From assembly GCA_027062285.1 (NCBI GenBank), contig JAMOTL010000011.1, forward strand, positions 1 to 52,267: DNA of 52,267 bases, read 5' to 3'. The stretch is from Nautiliaceae bacterium (GTDB lineage Bacteria; Campylobacterota; Campylobacteria; Campylobacterales; Nautiliaceae). Each line of letters starts with the position of its first letter. Positions within the stretch are counted from its first letter, which is position 1. This document shows, one piece after another, positions 1,809 through 21,924 of this stretch. The notes beneath the pieces are model-generated. The model saw only the letters and a program-made list of their open reading frames with translations. It was not told the DNA's origin and made no database searches. Made by a program: the position numbers and the translations under genes.

Positions 1809-2504
1809 GACGGGATTTTCTAAAGGAACGTGAGGTTCTGCGTATTTTTTCTTAGCGGGTACTTGAATAATTTCATATTCCCATGGTTTTAAAGAATTTG
1901 GAATAACAAGAGCCGTTAATTTGTTTCCATAAACGCAACCGGTGTCTATTCCTGCTGCGAATCTGTTTTTTTTGACTTCTAAAAACGGATTATGGCCGTA
2001 TACTACAAATCCTTCATGCCCGTCATAGACATCTGCCCAGTATTTTGCGTTTGGATAATTATGATTTAGAGGTAAAAATTTATCATTTTCATCTACTTCT
2101 CTTAAAAAAAGTAAAAGTGTCATTATATTTAATGGAGGATTGTTAAGTCTTATTCTATTGGTAATACCAGCATGAACTATTGTTAAATGATTTAATTTTA
2201 AAAAAAAAGGCATTGATTCGATAAAATCAAAATCTTCCTGTTTTAATTGAGGGTATATTTTTTGCTGGTCTTCATCAAGCTGGACTTTTCTTCCCCAATA
2301 TTTTCTTATATGTTTATATTCGTGATTTCCCATGATTGTAAAAATTTTATTTTTTTTAGCATATCTCAGAGCTTCAACGGGATAAGGACCTTTATCTAAT
2401 ATGTCTCCTACACTTATCTCCCATGCGTTTTTAGGTATTAACTTTCTAAGCTCTTCCCATTCTTCAAGACATCCGTGTACGTCTCCGTAAATAACATATC
2501 GCAT
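1803..2504 (-). CDS. Metallophosphoesterase (ApaH/PrpE/PPP-like)
   Basis: This 233-residue cytoplasmic protein has the ordered metallophosphoesterase motifs: G-D-V-H-G near residue 7, G-D-I-L-D-K-G near 33, G-N-H-E near 59, then V-H-A-G and a late Y-G-H-N. These bind a di-metal centre. The family includes diadenosine tetraphosphate hydrolases and Ser/Thr protein phosphatases, and the sequence alone does not decide between them. The start is an ATG behind a good AAAGGA ribosome site, which lies inside the 3' end of tilS. It is last in the rimO-tilS-phosphoesterase operon. Lys replaces the usual Arg of the G-D-x-x-D-R-G motif. Confidence 0.8.
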   Translation of the reverse strand: MRYVIYGDVHGCLEEWEELRKLIPKNAWEISVGDILDKGPYPVEALRYAKKNKIFTIMGNHEYKHIRKYWGRKVQLDEDQQKIYPQLKQEDFDFIESMPFFLKLNHLTIVHAGITNRIRLNNPPLNIMTLLLFLREVDENDKFLPLNHNYPNAKYWADVYDGHEGFVVYGHNPFLEVKKNRFAAGIDTGCVYGNKLTALVIPNSLKPWEYEIIQVPAKKKYAEPHVPLENPVS

Positions 2505-3421
2505 AATTTTTCCTTTGCTATATAACCTCTGATTTTTGGAGGGATTTTATTGATTCTAAAAAGTTCTTTTTGATTTTTGGTTAGTGGAATTTTAACATAA
2601 GGAGATAGATAAATTTTGGAGTCGTTGGAGTCGATTGCTATTTTTCCTTGAATGACACAGTTAAAATTTGTTCTTAGTATTTCATCTTTTTGAGCTTTTG
2701 TAGGAAGTATGCCGAGTCTTTTTAATATTAAATCTATTTTCTTTATATCTTTTTCAGGAATACTTTTTTCAAAAAAATAAAGTTTTTCAATCTTTTTCCA
2801 GTTAGTATCTATCAAAAGTTTTTTATCTTCTTCCAAAAATTCGAAGCTTCTTTTGACTCCCTCTTCAAACATCTCTATAAATTTATCCGAAAATTCATGA
2901 CGTATGAGATTTCTTTTATATTTTTTATCAAAGTTACTTTCATCTACAAAATATTTAATATTGTATTTATGTAAAAATTCTATAATTTCCCTGCGAGATA
3001 CATTATAAAAAGGCCTATATATTTTATAAAATTCTCTCTCCTCCCATTTTTCCATTCCTATTAACTCTTTAAGTCCCGCTCCTTTACTAAGTTGCATCAA
3101 AAACCATTCGAATCTGTCATTTAGTTGGTGTGCTAAAATAAGAGTGTCATATCCGTATTTTTTGATAATTTCTTCAAAAAATTGATACCGGCAATCTCTT
3201 GCTTTTTTTTCACTGAATTTTTTTAATTTACAATCTTTTATAAATATTTTTTTATTATATTTTTTTGCTAAGTTTTTGGCATAGTCCACTTCTTCATCAC
3301 TTGTTTGACGGGTGTGATAATTTACTATAGCCAAATCAAAAGGAATATTTTTTTCAAGAAGCCAGAAAAAAAGAGCGCTTGAATCTACACCCCCTGAAAA
3401 AGCAAGCAGATTTTTAGCCAA
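2438..3421 (-). CDS. tilS: tRNA(Ile)-lysidine synthase TilS
   Basis: TilS uses ATP to attach lysine to C34 of the tRNA-Ile that reads AUA codons, and is essential in most bacteria. The PP-loop signature S-G-G-V-D-S-S lies at residues 9-15. The N-terminal ATP-pyrophosphatase domain is complete, including the L-I-L-A-H-Q-L-N-D-R segment. The protein has 327 residues, short like other Campylobacterota homologues, with a reduced C-terminal region. Translation starts at a TTG with an upstream TAGGA site that lies in the end of rimO (8-base overlap). At its own 3' end it overlaps the phosphoesterase gene by 67 bases, which is unusually long. Confidence 0.93.
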   Translation of the reverse strand: MAKNLLAFSGGVDSSALFFWLLEKNIPFDLAIVNYHTRQTSDEEVDYAKNLAKKYNKKIFIKDCKLKKFSEKKARDCRYQFFEEIIKKYGYDTLILAHQLNDRFEWFLMQLSKGAGLKELIGMEKWEEREFYKIYRPFYNVSRREIIEFLHKYNIKYFVDESNFDKKYKRNLIRHEFSDKFIEMFEEGVKRSFEFLEEDKKLLIDTNWKKIEKLYFFEKSIPEKDIKKIDLILKRLGILPTKAQKDEILRTNFNCVIQGKIAIDSNDSKIYLSPYVKIPLTKNQKELFRINKIPPKIRGYIAKEKLCDMLFTETYTDVLKNGKSLES

Positions 3422-17112: not shown

Positions 17113-18477
17113 TTATTTTACTATACCTTTATAAAAGTTTAAAATTATCCCCACAGAAAAAATCGATGTGTTTAATCTTCCGTCTATGGCCTTAATGCGT
17201 CCGCCTGAGATAAAAAAGTATTTATATTTGATACCTATATCGGCTTTTGCCAATAGGCCGCCTCCTACATCTACATTTCCGCCTCCTCCGGCTCCTATTG
17301 CTCCTCTTATAAACAGATTATCCGTAATATCATACTGAGCACCGAACATTCCTACGGCGTATCCTCCGCTGTCACCGTTGTAAGCAGCAGCCGTGTTTAC
17401 GAATAAAGATAGATTGTCTTTTTTATAGATTCCTATATCCAAATTGATTAAATCAAGTCTTTTTGATTCTTTGGTTTTACGGATAGTTTTTGAAGGAAGA
17501 TAAGATTCGGAATAAATTTTAAAATTAAATTTTTTAGGTTTAAAATTTACTAATTTATTTCCCGTCGTAATAAAATTAAAACGTTTTGAGAGTGATGCTT
17601 TGGCAAAAAGGGTTTTTATACCTCCTGGGGCATTCATAAATCCGGCGGATAAGTTAAAAGTTTTGAAATTAGTTTCAGTTTCGATTTTATAAATAAATCC
17701 TCCTTTGGTGTCTACTTCTCCGCCTCCCCCGGCTCCTATGGCTGCTTTTAGTTTTATATATTTGAATTTTTTTCCGGCACCGAAAAGATACTCGGCGTAT
17801 CCGTCACTGTCGCCCTTAAAAGCTCCGGCAGCTGTTAAAAAGGCGAAAAAATTATCGTAATCTTTGTCTATTTCCGCTCCGATTAGAGTAAATCTTTTTT
17901 GAGTTTTTCCGGAAGTTGTTTTGGAATTTATAGGTATATATTCCATAATAAAAGGCGAAAAAGTTATTTTTTCTATTCCGTATTTACCGAATAATTTTGA
18001 AGGTTTATTGGAAAAATATACTTCTTTAAAATTATAATCCATTATAAAACCGAGTTGAGTCGAATCTATTTCACCGTCTTTAAACCAAATATGGTTAATA
18101 TTTAAACCGAGTTCATAATTTTTATACGGATATAAAAATCCGGCATGAGCTTTTAACATTAGACCGCTGCCTTGAGGAGCATGTCCTCCTCCACCGCCTC
18201 CGATAAAAACTCCGCTGTCAACATAGAATTTGTTTATAGGATATTTTATTCCTCCGATTATACCACCCGTAAAAAATCCTCCTCTTTTTCCGGTTACGGC
18301 TGAATAAACACCGATACCCGTATAAAATTTATCAATATAAAAAAGATAAGAAGTTTCAAAAAGTCCCATATGTTCATTATTGAATTTTAAATTTTGAAAA
18401 GAGAGTCTCAGAGAGTTATTTGTAGTTGCGCAAAAGGCAAATGTACACGATAATATAATTAAAAGCTTTTTTAGCAT
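17113..18477 (-). CDS. Exported Gly-rich protein with three repeats, probable outer-membrane or surface beta protein
   Basis: 454 residues with a signal peptide (MLKKLLIILSCTFAFCA). The mature protein consists of three related units of about 100-110 residues. Each holds a run of Gly: G-G-G-G-G-G near 93-98, G-A-G-G-G-G-E-V-D near 248-255, and G-A-G-G-G-G-N-V-D-V-G-G-G near 395-407. Each is preceded by G-D-S-x-G-Y-A or a similar turn and followed by alternating aromatic strands. Strand periodicity suggests beta-barrel or beta-solenoid structure. No known enzyme motif is seen. It lies between metK and metE with its own TATAAT. Family unknown to me. Confidence 0.7.
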   Translation of the reverse strand: MLKKLLIILSCTFAFCATTNNSLRLSFQNLKFNNEHMGLFETSYLFYIDKFYTGIGVYSAVTGKRGGFFTGGIIGGIKYPINKFYVDSGVFIGGGGGGHAPQGSGLMLKAHAGFLYPYKNYELGLNINHIWFKDGEIDSTQLGFIMDYNFKEVYFSNKPSKLFGKYGIEKITFSPFIMEYIPINSKTTSGKTQKRFTLIGAEIDKDYDNFFAFLTAAGAFKGDSDGYAEYLFGAGKKFKYIKLKAAIGAGGGGEVDTKGGFIYKIETETNFKTFNLSAGFMNAPGGIKTLFAKASLSKRFNFITTGNKLVNFKPKKFNFKIYSESYLPSKTIRKTKESKRLDLINLDIGIYKKDNLSLFVNTAAAYNGDSGGYAVGMFGAQYDITDNLFIRGAIGAGGGGNVDVGGGLLAKADIGIKYKYFFISGGRIKAIDGRLNTSIFSVGIILNFYKGIVK

Positions 18478-18498
18478 ATTGATACCTTGAAGTTTTTA

Positions 18499-20841: not shown

Positions 20842-21924
20842 CTATCTTACTTCTTTAAATGCTCCGTTTATTATTTGATAAAGTTTTATTTTATATAAAA
20901 TTTGATTATCAAAAATATAAGTTTTAAAATCATTCATATAAAAATTTTCTTCCCCGGTTTGATTATTGTATATTTTATTCAATAATATATTTGAAGCATA
21001 ATTTAACCAGTTGTATTTTATATCCGTATTAATAATAAGATTATAATCTTCTATTAATAAAGGCGGATGAATTATTGAATTGGCGATTATAAGTTTTTTA
21101 ACGTCATCCGGTTGGGTGATTCCTATTAAAAGAGGATCATAGTTAATTTGAGAAGCCAGTTGAAGTTTCGTTTCAAGTTCGTAATATGTTATTTTTGATA
21201 ACACCTGAGCTGTTTTTGCCGTTCTTGTGTTAAAAAATACAAAACTGTTATTGAGGTCATTGTAATTAATGTTTGGATATTCGTACGGAATTATCGTTAA
21301 GTTTAGTTCGTTTTCATATTTAAAGAGTTTGTTTGAGAGATTGGTGTTTTCATTAATAGAGATTGCTTTATTATCATCAATAAATTCTGCTAACTTATTT
21401 ATCTGTTCTTTATAATCAATGCCTCCGAAGTAAAGATTAGTGGTGTTTGTTTCGATTTCTTTTTTATTAAAAATAGGAATATAAAATTTTGAATTATTAT
21501 ATTCACTTAAATTTTGAATATATTTTTTATTCAGTGAATAAATGATAGTGTCATTACATTCGCCGTTGATTTTTTCAATACTTTCATTAATATCAAAAAC
21601 TTTTAATTCATAATCAACATCTTTATAAATTAAATAAGCGTTTAAAGAATTGATAATAGAAGGGACAAATTTAAAGAATCTTTTTTTATTTATAACTACA
21701 CAAACTTTTACATGAGGTTTTAAAGATACGAAGTTGTCTTCCAGTACTATTTCTTCTTCTTTTATTGTTTCGTTGTTATCAAAAACCGATTTCGTTTCAC
21801 TGTTTTTTGTTGAATTTATTTCGCTTGTATTAGTATCCGGGATATTGAAAACAGGTGTTTCATAATATAGACTTTCTTGAGCGAATAATAACAATCCGAT
21901 TAAAATTGCCGCTACTTTTTTCAT
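20842..21924 (-). CDS. Exported protein with periplasmic-binding-like fold
   Basis: 360 residues with a signal peptide (MKKVAAILIGLLLFAQ), a low-complexity Asn/Thr/Glu linker to about residue 65, and then repeated strand-helix units typical of type I periplasmic binding folds (V-K-V-C-V-V-I opening, L-Y-F-G-G-I-D-Y, and P-L-L-I-G-I-T-Q-P near the end). Its start overlaps the udg stop by four bases. A lipid- or cell-wall-related sensor of the LpoA type is one thought, but no specific motif supports this. Found last in the COG3400-aroB-mscS-udg operon. Confidence 0.62.
   Translation of the reverse strand: MKKVAAILIGLLLFAQESLYYETPVFNIPDTNTSEINSTKNSETKSVFDNNETIKEEEIVLEDNFVSLKPHVKVCVVINKKRFFKFVPSIINSLNAYLIYKDVDYELKVFDINESIEKINGECNDTIIYSLNKKYIQNLSEYNNSKFYIPIFNKKEIETNTTNLYFGGIDYKEQINKLAEFIDDNKAISINENTNLSNKLFKYENELNLTIIPYEYPNINYNDLNNSFVFFNTRTAKTAQVLSKITYYELETKLQLASQINYDPLLIGITQPDDVKKLIIANSIIHPPLLIEDYNLIINTDIKYNWLNYASNILLNKIYNNQTGEENFYMNDFKTYIFDNQILYKIKLYQIINGAFKEVR

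Follow-up and report, generated by a model that had tools for sequence, protein, structure and literature searches.

We report here that a 454-residue protein encoded in a 52,267-nucleotide stretch of DNA from a Nautiliaceae bacterium (contig JAMOTL010000011.1 of assembly GCA_027062285.1; the whole stretch is referred to below as the window) is a true triplication of a single domain. The protein is predicted to fold as three eight-stranded barrels within one chain, and belongs to a widely distributed family, without a name in the libraries searched, whose genes lie beside OPX polysaccharide export genes far more often than expected. Of the explanations considered, the best, to which we give about an even chance, is that the protein serves as a multi-barrel outer-membrane accessory of OPX-type export, with a role like that of GfcD/YjbH but from another family; the evidence that points to such a function comes from gene neighbourhood and co-occurrence. 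Both the wide phylogenetic spread of the family and its link to OPX export genes had been missed in the original prediction. The gene and the features discussed in the following paragraphs are (window positions, all on the minus strand):

17113..18477 (-): gene for the 454-aa predicted triple-barrel outer-membrane protein; ATG start at 18477, stop at 17113-17115 (open reading frame and translation)
18484..18488 (-): likely ribosome-binding site AAGGT, 6 bases ahead of the ATG (upstream sequence)
18424..18477 (-): putative signal peptide, about residues 1-18 (MLKKLLIILSCTFAFCAT), as read from the sequence
18013..18432 (-): predicted barrel 1, residues 16-155, eight strands (AlphaFold2 strands and VIA-align 2)
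18271..18291 (-): second conserved loop of barrel 1, predicted on the surface side, residues 63-69 (GKRGGFF); R65 in 99% of 68 sequences
18163..18201 (-): Gly-rich predicted surface hairpin of barrel 1, residues 93-105 (GGGGGGHAPQGSG), the strand 5-6 loop; invariant or near-invariant glycines in 68 sequences
17563..17991 (-): predicted barrel 2, residues 163-305, eight strands (AlphaFold2 strands and structural matches)
17698..17736 (-): Gly-rich predicted surface hairpin of barrel 2, residues 248-260 (GAGGGGEVDTKGG) (conservation and model)
17122..17541 (-): predicted barrel 3, residues 313-452, eight strands (AlphaFold2 strands and structural matches)
17257..17295 (-): Gly-rich predicted surface hairpin of barrel 3, residues 395-407 (GAGGGGNVDVGGG) (conservation and model)

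In the window's genus the triple-barrel gene is flanked by metE and metK. It had been credited with a promoter of its own, but a promoter scan returned no minus-strand promoter-like site in the 70-bp upstream gap, and co-transcription with metE is therefore equally possible. Upstream of metE lies a gene (20842-21924, minus strand) for a 360-aa protein with a signal-peptide-like start and no recognised family, which occupies the same position in a congener (L113:4448-5518). A search of the 1.55-Mb source genome (98.7% complete, 111 contigs) for a second copy of the triple-barrel gene returned its own locus as the sole match at E <= 0.001.

That the protein is composed of three homologous units, as had been proposed, is borne out both by profile-profile comparison and by cross-unit scores measured against shuffled sequences. 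In hhalign comparisons of unit profiles drawn from 12 relatives, the E-values were 8e-32 (unit 2 against unit 3), 7e-17 (1 against 3) and 9e-12 (1 against 2), in agreement with the further proposal that units 2 and 3 are mutually closest. Cross-unit scores of the unit profiles ranged from 6 to 101 bits, and the top scores among 1,800 shuffled unit sequences were 17.4, 9.7 and 13.2 bits for the profiles of units 1, 2 and 3, respectively; four of the 12 unit-2 copies fell below 17.4 bits against the unit-1 profile, and all remaining cross-unit scores exceeded the best shuffle of their own profile. The unit itself is larger than the 100-110 residues first supposed, at approximately 147 residues with eight strands. 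The glycine cores near residues 93, 248 and 395 had been placed correctly and are invariant in 68 sequences of the family, whereas the V-D-x-x-G-G turn that was thought to accompany each of them is, in the window protein, present in units 2 and 3 but replaced in unit 1 by A-P-Q-G-S-G. When the three units of 11 proteins are compared, giving 33 unit copies, seven residues (one Ala and six Gly) never vary.

Structure prediction gave a consistent repeat. AlphaFold2 models built with 12 sequences reached a pLDDT of 81.6 and a pTM of 0.70, and those built with 68 sequences a pLDDT of 93.7 and a pTM of 0.86 (92.4 to 93.7 across five models), with lowest confidence at residues 1-18, the signal-peptide-like N-terminus. 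In the 68-sequence model the predicted strands number 8 + 8 + 8, joined by linkers of about seven residues and with no middle domain, such that three separate barrels are modelled in one chain; the pTM suggests that they adopt a defined mutual arrangement. VIA-align 2 aligned residues 18-152, 169-300 and 315-445 each separately to eight-stranded barrels (Z 10-15), with the following matches: for barrel 1, NspA (Z 15.2, rmsd 2.6 over 132) and the OprF N-domain (Z 15.2, rmsd 2.4 over 121); for barrel 2, PagL in the first model (Z 13.8, rmsd 2.0 over 115) and Ail in the second (Z 10.1, rmsd 3.2 over 123); and for barrel 3, OmpW (Z 13.4, rmsd 2.5 over 129) and OmpA (Z 13.1, rmsd 2.3 over 115). No whole-chain match to a large barrel was seen among the 50 Foldseek matches listed per model, for which query TM-scores were at most 0.27. 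A single large porin was rejected on these low whole-chain scores and on the three closed small barrels in both models, and we hold with high confidence that the protein is predicted correctly as three closed small barrels in one chain rather than as one large barrel. Together with the signal-peptide-like start, the barrel prediction points to an outer-membrane location. The earlier suggestion of a new type of beta barrel or surface protein is thus upheld as far as a predicted outer-membrane beta-barrel is concerned but not in its claim of a new barrel type, the units being modelled as classical eight-stranded barrels; what is unusual is the fusion of three of them in one chain and the conservation of their surface side.

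Chain ends of known barrels are periplasmic, and on this assumption the barrels can be given a probable orientation in the membrane. With this orientation, the outer strand halves are more conserved than the inner halves (1.97 vs 1.43 bits over 68 sequences), as are the surface loops relative to the periplasmic turns (2.04 vs 1.25). Because the loci had been retrieved through two unit-1 motifs, conservation was re-tested on units 2 and 3 alone, where outer and inner halves differ at p 9e-5 and loops and turns at p 0.03, and on 12 sequences retrieved without motifs, where outer and inner halves differ at p 5e-7. For the loops that join strands 3-4 and 5-6, conservation reaches 2.1-2.8 bits in every one of the three units; in units 2 and 3 the first loops vary as much as turns do (1.23-1.26 bits), and the last loop of unit 3, at 1.51 bits, lies below the strand average. 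Counterparts of the GKRGGFF loop, two glycines of which are invariant over the 33 unit copies, are GDSDGY (222-227) in barrel 2 and GDSGGY (368-373) in barrel 3. This pattern of conservation suggests that the working face of the protein is its cell-surface side, where the same Gly-rich loops are repeated three times. It is unusual that the surface side should be what selection keeps most.

The identity of the conserved residues bears on two further readings. An outer-membrane enzyme or lipid-handling protein, similar to PagL or PagP, that modifies at the surface either lipid A or the glycan being exported would be consistent with the appearance of PagL and PagP (the latter at rmsd 4.9) among the structural matches, with the placement of the conserved residues on the side where such active sites can lie, and with the retention of E35 and S139 in 85% of the 68 sequences. 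However, the 48 positions at which one residue is found in >= 90% of these sequences are mostly Gly, along with R65, F68, F69, F132, I137, Q141, Y373 and a few Ala; Ser, His, Asp, Glu and Cys are all absent from them. The idea of an enzyme that keeps a catalytic set was accordingly rejected, and we regard the enzyme or lipid-handling reading as very improbable. Alternatively, the protein may be a general outer-membrane structural or surface-binding protein (an adhesin, a receptor or an OmpA/OmpW-like protein), as the resemblance of its units to general eight-stranded barrels would suggest. The surface loops of adhesins vary, whereas those of this family are conserved across phyla; the genomic evidence for and against this possibility is considered below.

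Sequence searches did not assign the window protein to a named family. The protein matched no Pfam model (E up to 10) and no NCBIfam model, so that no Pfam family covers its three units, and sequence searches of the PDB found no significant relative of the protein or its family among solved structures; on these searches a known family was ruled out for the window protein. Among 68 members, Pfam matches (E up to 0.1) were scattered and weak, the best being OMP_b-brl (PF13505; 3/68, best E 8.2e-5, with none for the window protein) and DUF481 (5/68), and seven NCBIfam models matched one member each. A YjbH-type model, which we take Pfam to contain, matched neither the window protein nor 12 members (both E up to 10), nor any of the 68 members (E up to 0.1). 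The family description was also not recognised in the open-licence PMC literature, as judged by titles and the beginnings of abstracts. OmpA, the OprF N-domain, NspA, OmpW, OmpX/Ail and PagL share the predicted fold of each unit, but they are single barrels, and the family shows no significant sequence relation to solved structures.

Relatives were found in Campylobacterota, Pseudomonadota (Gamma- and Betaproteobacteria), Nitrospirota, Bacteroidota (Flavobacteriaceae), Acidobacteriota and Planctomycetota, many of them in metagenome bins for which single record titles may be wrong. A scan of a genome contig collection (84,980 species by its description) with the single protein found no relative, whereas a profile scan of the same collection succeeded, yielding 90 loci of which 80 were kept. 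In a survey of 397 genomes of the window's phylum, Campylobacterota, a relative was found in 13 by single-sequence search and in 17 by profile. Members of the family carry three units: 75 of the 83 family reading frames in the 80 loci (start codons picked by script) cover the whole triple profile (position <= 37 to >= 480), and the remaining eight comprise six frames cut by contig ends and the two halves of a split gene in L049. Likewise, of 298 genomes, 11 gave matches to a unit profile (E <= 0.001), in every case precisely three and all in a single reading frame, and a lone unit was never found in the 298. The family is also an unambiguous example of the triplication of an entire barrel domain within a single chain, and no later reduction was seen among the genomes searched.

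The family tree places the window protein together with two congeners and G061 (100/100 support). Several members depart from the common pattern. One Campylobacterota contig carries two very different copies head-to-head (L016:5931-7478, minus strand, and L016:7580-9061, plus strand), the first of which is the longest end branch of the tree (1.63), and a Planctomycetota contig carries tandem triple-barrel genes (L061:107-1702 and 1986-3413, both plus strand), with six predicted barrels in neighbouring genes. The split gene (L049:7974-9472, plus strand) is read in two frames (376 + 123 aa), perhaps through a frameshift or sequencing error. The Gly motifs are eroded in a diverged branch, genus g47 (G191, G288, G305 and G360; e.g. 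L135:8029-9486 and L136:8111-9571, both plus strand), in two genomes of which (G191 and G360) the family gene lies beside what are, by name, presumably a sensor kinase and a response regulator. Candidate fusions to OPX or another domain were rejected: the long open frame of G191 reads, in our interpretation, antisense over a kinase gene, and those of L059, L069, L082 and L084 contain no Pfam domain.

The neighbourhood of the family genes points to a function. An OPX-like open reading frame, detected with an HMM of nine long OPX neighbours plus two short OPX queries, lies near the family gene in 16 of the 80 loci, at 8 to 3,858 bp (measured to the open frame rather than the start codon), where 0.55 would be expected for the flanks searched, given 91 OPX matches in 159.5 Mb. 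Although the loci in this count are not independent, mapping the adjacency on the tree (17 rows labelled, with G308 among them) requires a minimum of six gains or losses. Ten of the 16 OPX neighbours share the strand of the family gene, seven of them at no more than 178 bp, and the other six lie on the opposite strand. Contig ends truncate three of the 16, including the one in L088, which is a weak fragment (42 bits). The long OPX protein forms the largest neighbour group across the 80 loci (16 loci, with groups based on greedy ORF calls rather than curated genes), and all nine of the 16 that were scanned contain Poly_export and SLBB domains, one with a marginal GfcC_C match. Wzz/GNVR chain-length proteins also occur near several loci (groups of 7 and 4 loci; three members scanned). 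In G308 the family gene is part of an exopolysaccharide cluster with CpsB, a Wzz/GNVR-type kinase, OPX, glycosyltransferases and a polysaccharide deacetylase; a transposase gene between the OPX gene (238 aa) and the family gene counts against the link. An OPX gene is thus found within a few genes of the family gene in these 16 loci and in the G308 cluster, and not in the window.

Co-occurrence points in the same direction. Among Campylobacterota, Poly_export (OPX) is present in 16 of the 17 family-bearing genomes vs 111 of the 380 others, the two 397-genome surveys (family and OPX) being taken as the same set by matching handles; the Fisher p-value is 8e-8 when genomes are counted and 4e-4 when genera are, with no correction for kinship in either case. 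OPX is common in any case (127 of the 397 genomes of the phylum, and 45 of the 50 genomes behind the loci, a figure with no control set). The one exception among the 17 is the genome that contains the window; its 111 contigs, at 98.7% completeness, gave no match to Poly_export, SLBB, Wzz or a congener's OPX. Across the five genomes listed for its genus, barrel and OPX occur together in two, neither occurs in two, and the barrel alone occurs in the window's.

This absence speaks for a general surface protein, for which nearness to OPX would reflect the clustering of surface genes and not a shared function. Consistent with that reading, the family gene stands at orphan sites among housekeeping genes in several clades, next to what we take, from their names, to be dxr-tsaD in Sulfurimonas and metG in Iodobacter. 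In 64 of the 80 loci, among them all Bacteroidota, Iodobacter and most Sulfurimonas, no OPX was found in the flanks searched (up to 8 kb a side, shorter at some contig ends). On the other hand, the reading sits poorly with adjacency in 16 loci where 0.55 would be expected, with the six or more changes that this adjacency needs on the tree and with co-occurrence in 16 of 17 genomes, and we consider it possible but rather doubtful. Other recurring neighbours were also observed: in most Bacteroidota loci (L045, L047, L051, L054, L070, L081 and other Flavobacteriaceae loci) the family gene follows, in fixed order, a molybdopterin oxidoreductase gene and a gene that, by name, is presumably FdhD, with no OPX nearby, and in three Sulfurovum-like loci (L028, L034 and L036), also with no OPX nearby, it has a DUF1287 gene on one side and an FtsJ/S4 methyltransferase gene on the other, as seen in the one of these loci that was scanned and by grouping. 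The molybdopterin oxidoreductase of Bacteroidota and the ClpB-like, T2SSE and DUF1287 neighbours were rejected as clues to function, being confined to few clades and pointing to no shared function.

If the family does act in OPX export, its part in the process has to be compared with those of known barrels. A polymer would not fit through the interior of an eight-stranded barrel, and for this reason the triple barrel cannot simply be the channel. Proteins with more than one barrel in a single polypeptide, a property predicted here as well, were reportedly described by Solan et al. in 2021. Wzi, with a role in capsule attachment, is a non-channel outer-membrane barrel tied to polysaccharide clusters and provides a parallel of role only, differing from the present family in being one 18-stranded barrel. 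In the account given of it in PMC9603273, that barrel also contains a helical plug. GfcD/YjbH proteins of the group 4 capsule and yjb operons have several barrels per chain and are encoded with OPX or other polysaccharide genes (as outlined in PMC11494523 and PMC9603273). GfcD, described as a predicted two-barrel protein (PMC11494523, PMC8592465), is reported to have 12 + 13 strands together with a middle domain in the periplasm and a lateral gate (PMC11494523), unlike the predicted 8 + 8 + 8 arrangement without a middle domain; the triple-barrel family also lacks a YjbH-type Pfam match.

A further possibility is that the protein is itself the pore, its units forming or lining a polymer conduit (a single 24-stranded barrel or the gap between barrels) in place of a Wzp/EpsX-type porin. 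The composite translocons of Myxococcus, with Wzp (WzpX/S/B) and EpsX/EpsY, resemble the family in that an outer-membrane barrel gene lies beside an OPX gene, and its OPX pairing recalls the OPX/porin pairs described in PMC9603273 and PMC9601211; in G308, moreover, the partner is a short OPX (238 aa), the kind that, according to PMC9601211, is usually paired with barrels. However, Wzp and EpsX are single 18-stranded porins (a feature of 16-18 strands in the descriptions of PMC9603273 and PMC9601211), whereas both models here consist of three closed small barrels. The partners also differ: in the survey of PMC9601211, the OPX that accompanies a barrel measures <= 280 aa for 93% of the OPX-coupled barrels, but the triple-barrel family is found mostly with long OPX, the 13 uncut neighbours having open frames of 780-952 aa. 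Of 14 OPX C-termini that are whole or nearly whole, the final stretch is hydrophobic in nine (best 19-residue hydropathy 1.27-1.53) and less strongly so in five (0.60-0.92, one of them cut); the G308 OPX likewise ends in a hydrophobic stretch. Such a C-terminus may be a Wza-type outer-membrane helix that spans the membrane. If so, the triple barrel would act as an accessory and not as the pore, and we consider the pore reading improbable.

The accessory reading, which we prefer, may be set out as follows. The protein would be secreted by Sec and fold into the outer membrane as three predicted eight-stranded barrels, where it would sit with or beside an OPX (Wza-type) channel and help the polymer to leave, to be held or to be anchored at the surface, as proposed for GfcD or Wzi. 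GfcD, encoded in the operon of the class-1 OPX GfcE, would be the parallel for an accessory as opposed to a pore. In the window's organism, where no OPX was found, the protein must either work with another partner, or with one that escaped detection, or else be a remnant.

More tentatively, and with appreciably less confidence than in the accessory role itself, we suggest that this pan-phylum, obligate triple-barrel family, with its thrice-repeated and strictly conserved Gly-rich surface face, may constitute a dedicated outer-membrane component of polymer export, mostly associated with long OPX, that serves as a platform for exit, gating or anchoring and is separate from Wza pores, Wzp porins, Wzi and GfcD. 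Of two published surveys of OPX-linked barrels, one began from known sequences (Wzp, PgaA, GfcD, YjbH, BcsC, AlgE and Wzi queries, as described in PMC9603273) and the other reported barrels that, in 93% of cases, lie beside short OPX (PMC9601211). Many OPX systems still lack a settled account of how the polymer passes the outer membrane or is retained there, and a widespread family encoded mostly beside long OPX genes offers a concrete and testable candidate for a missing part of the export machinery.
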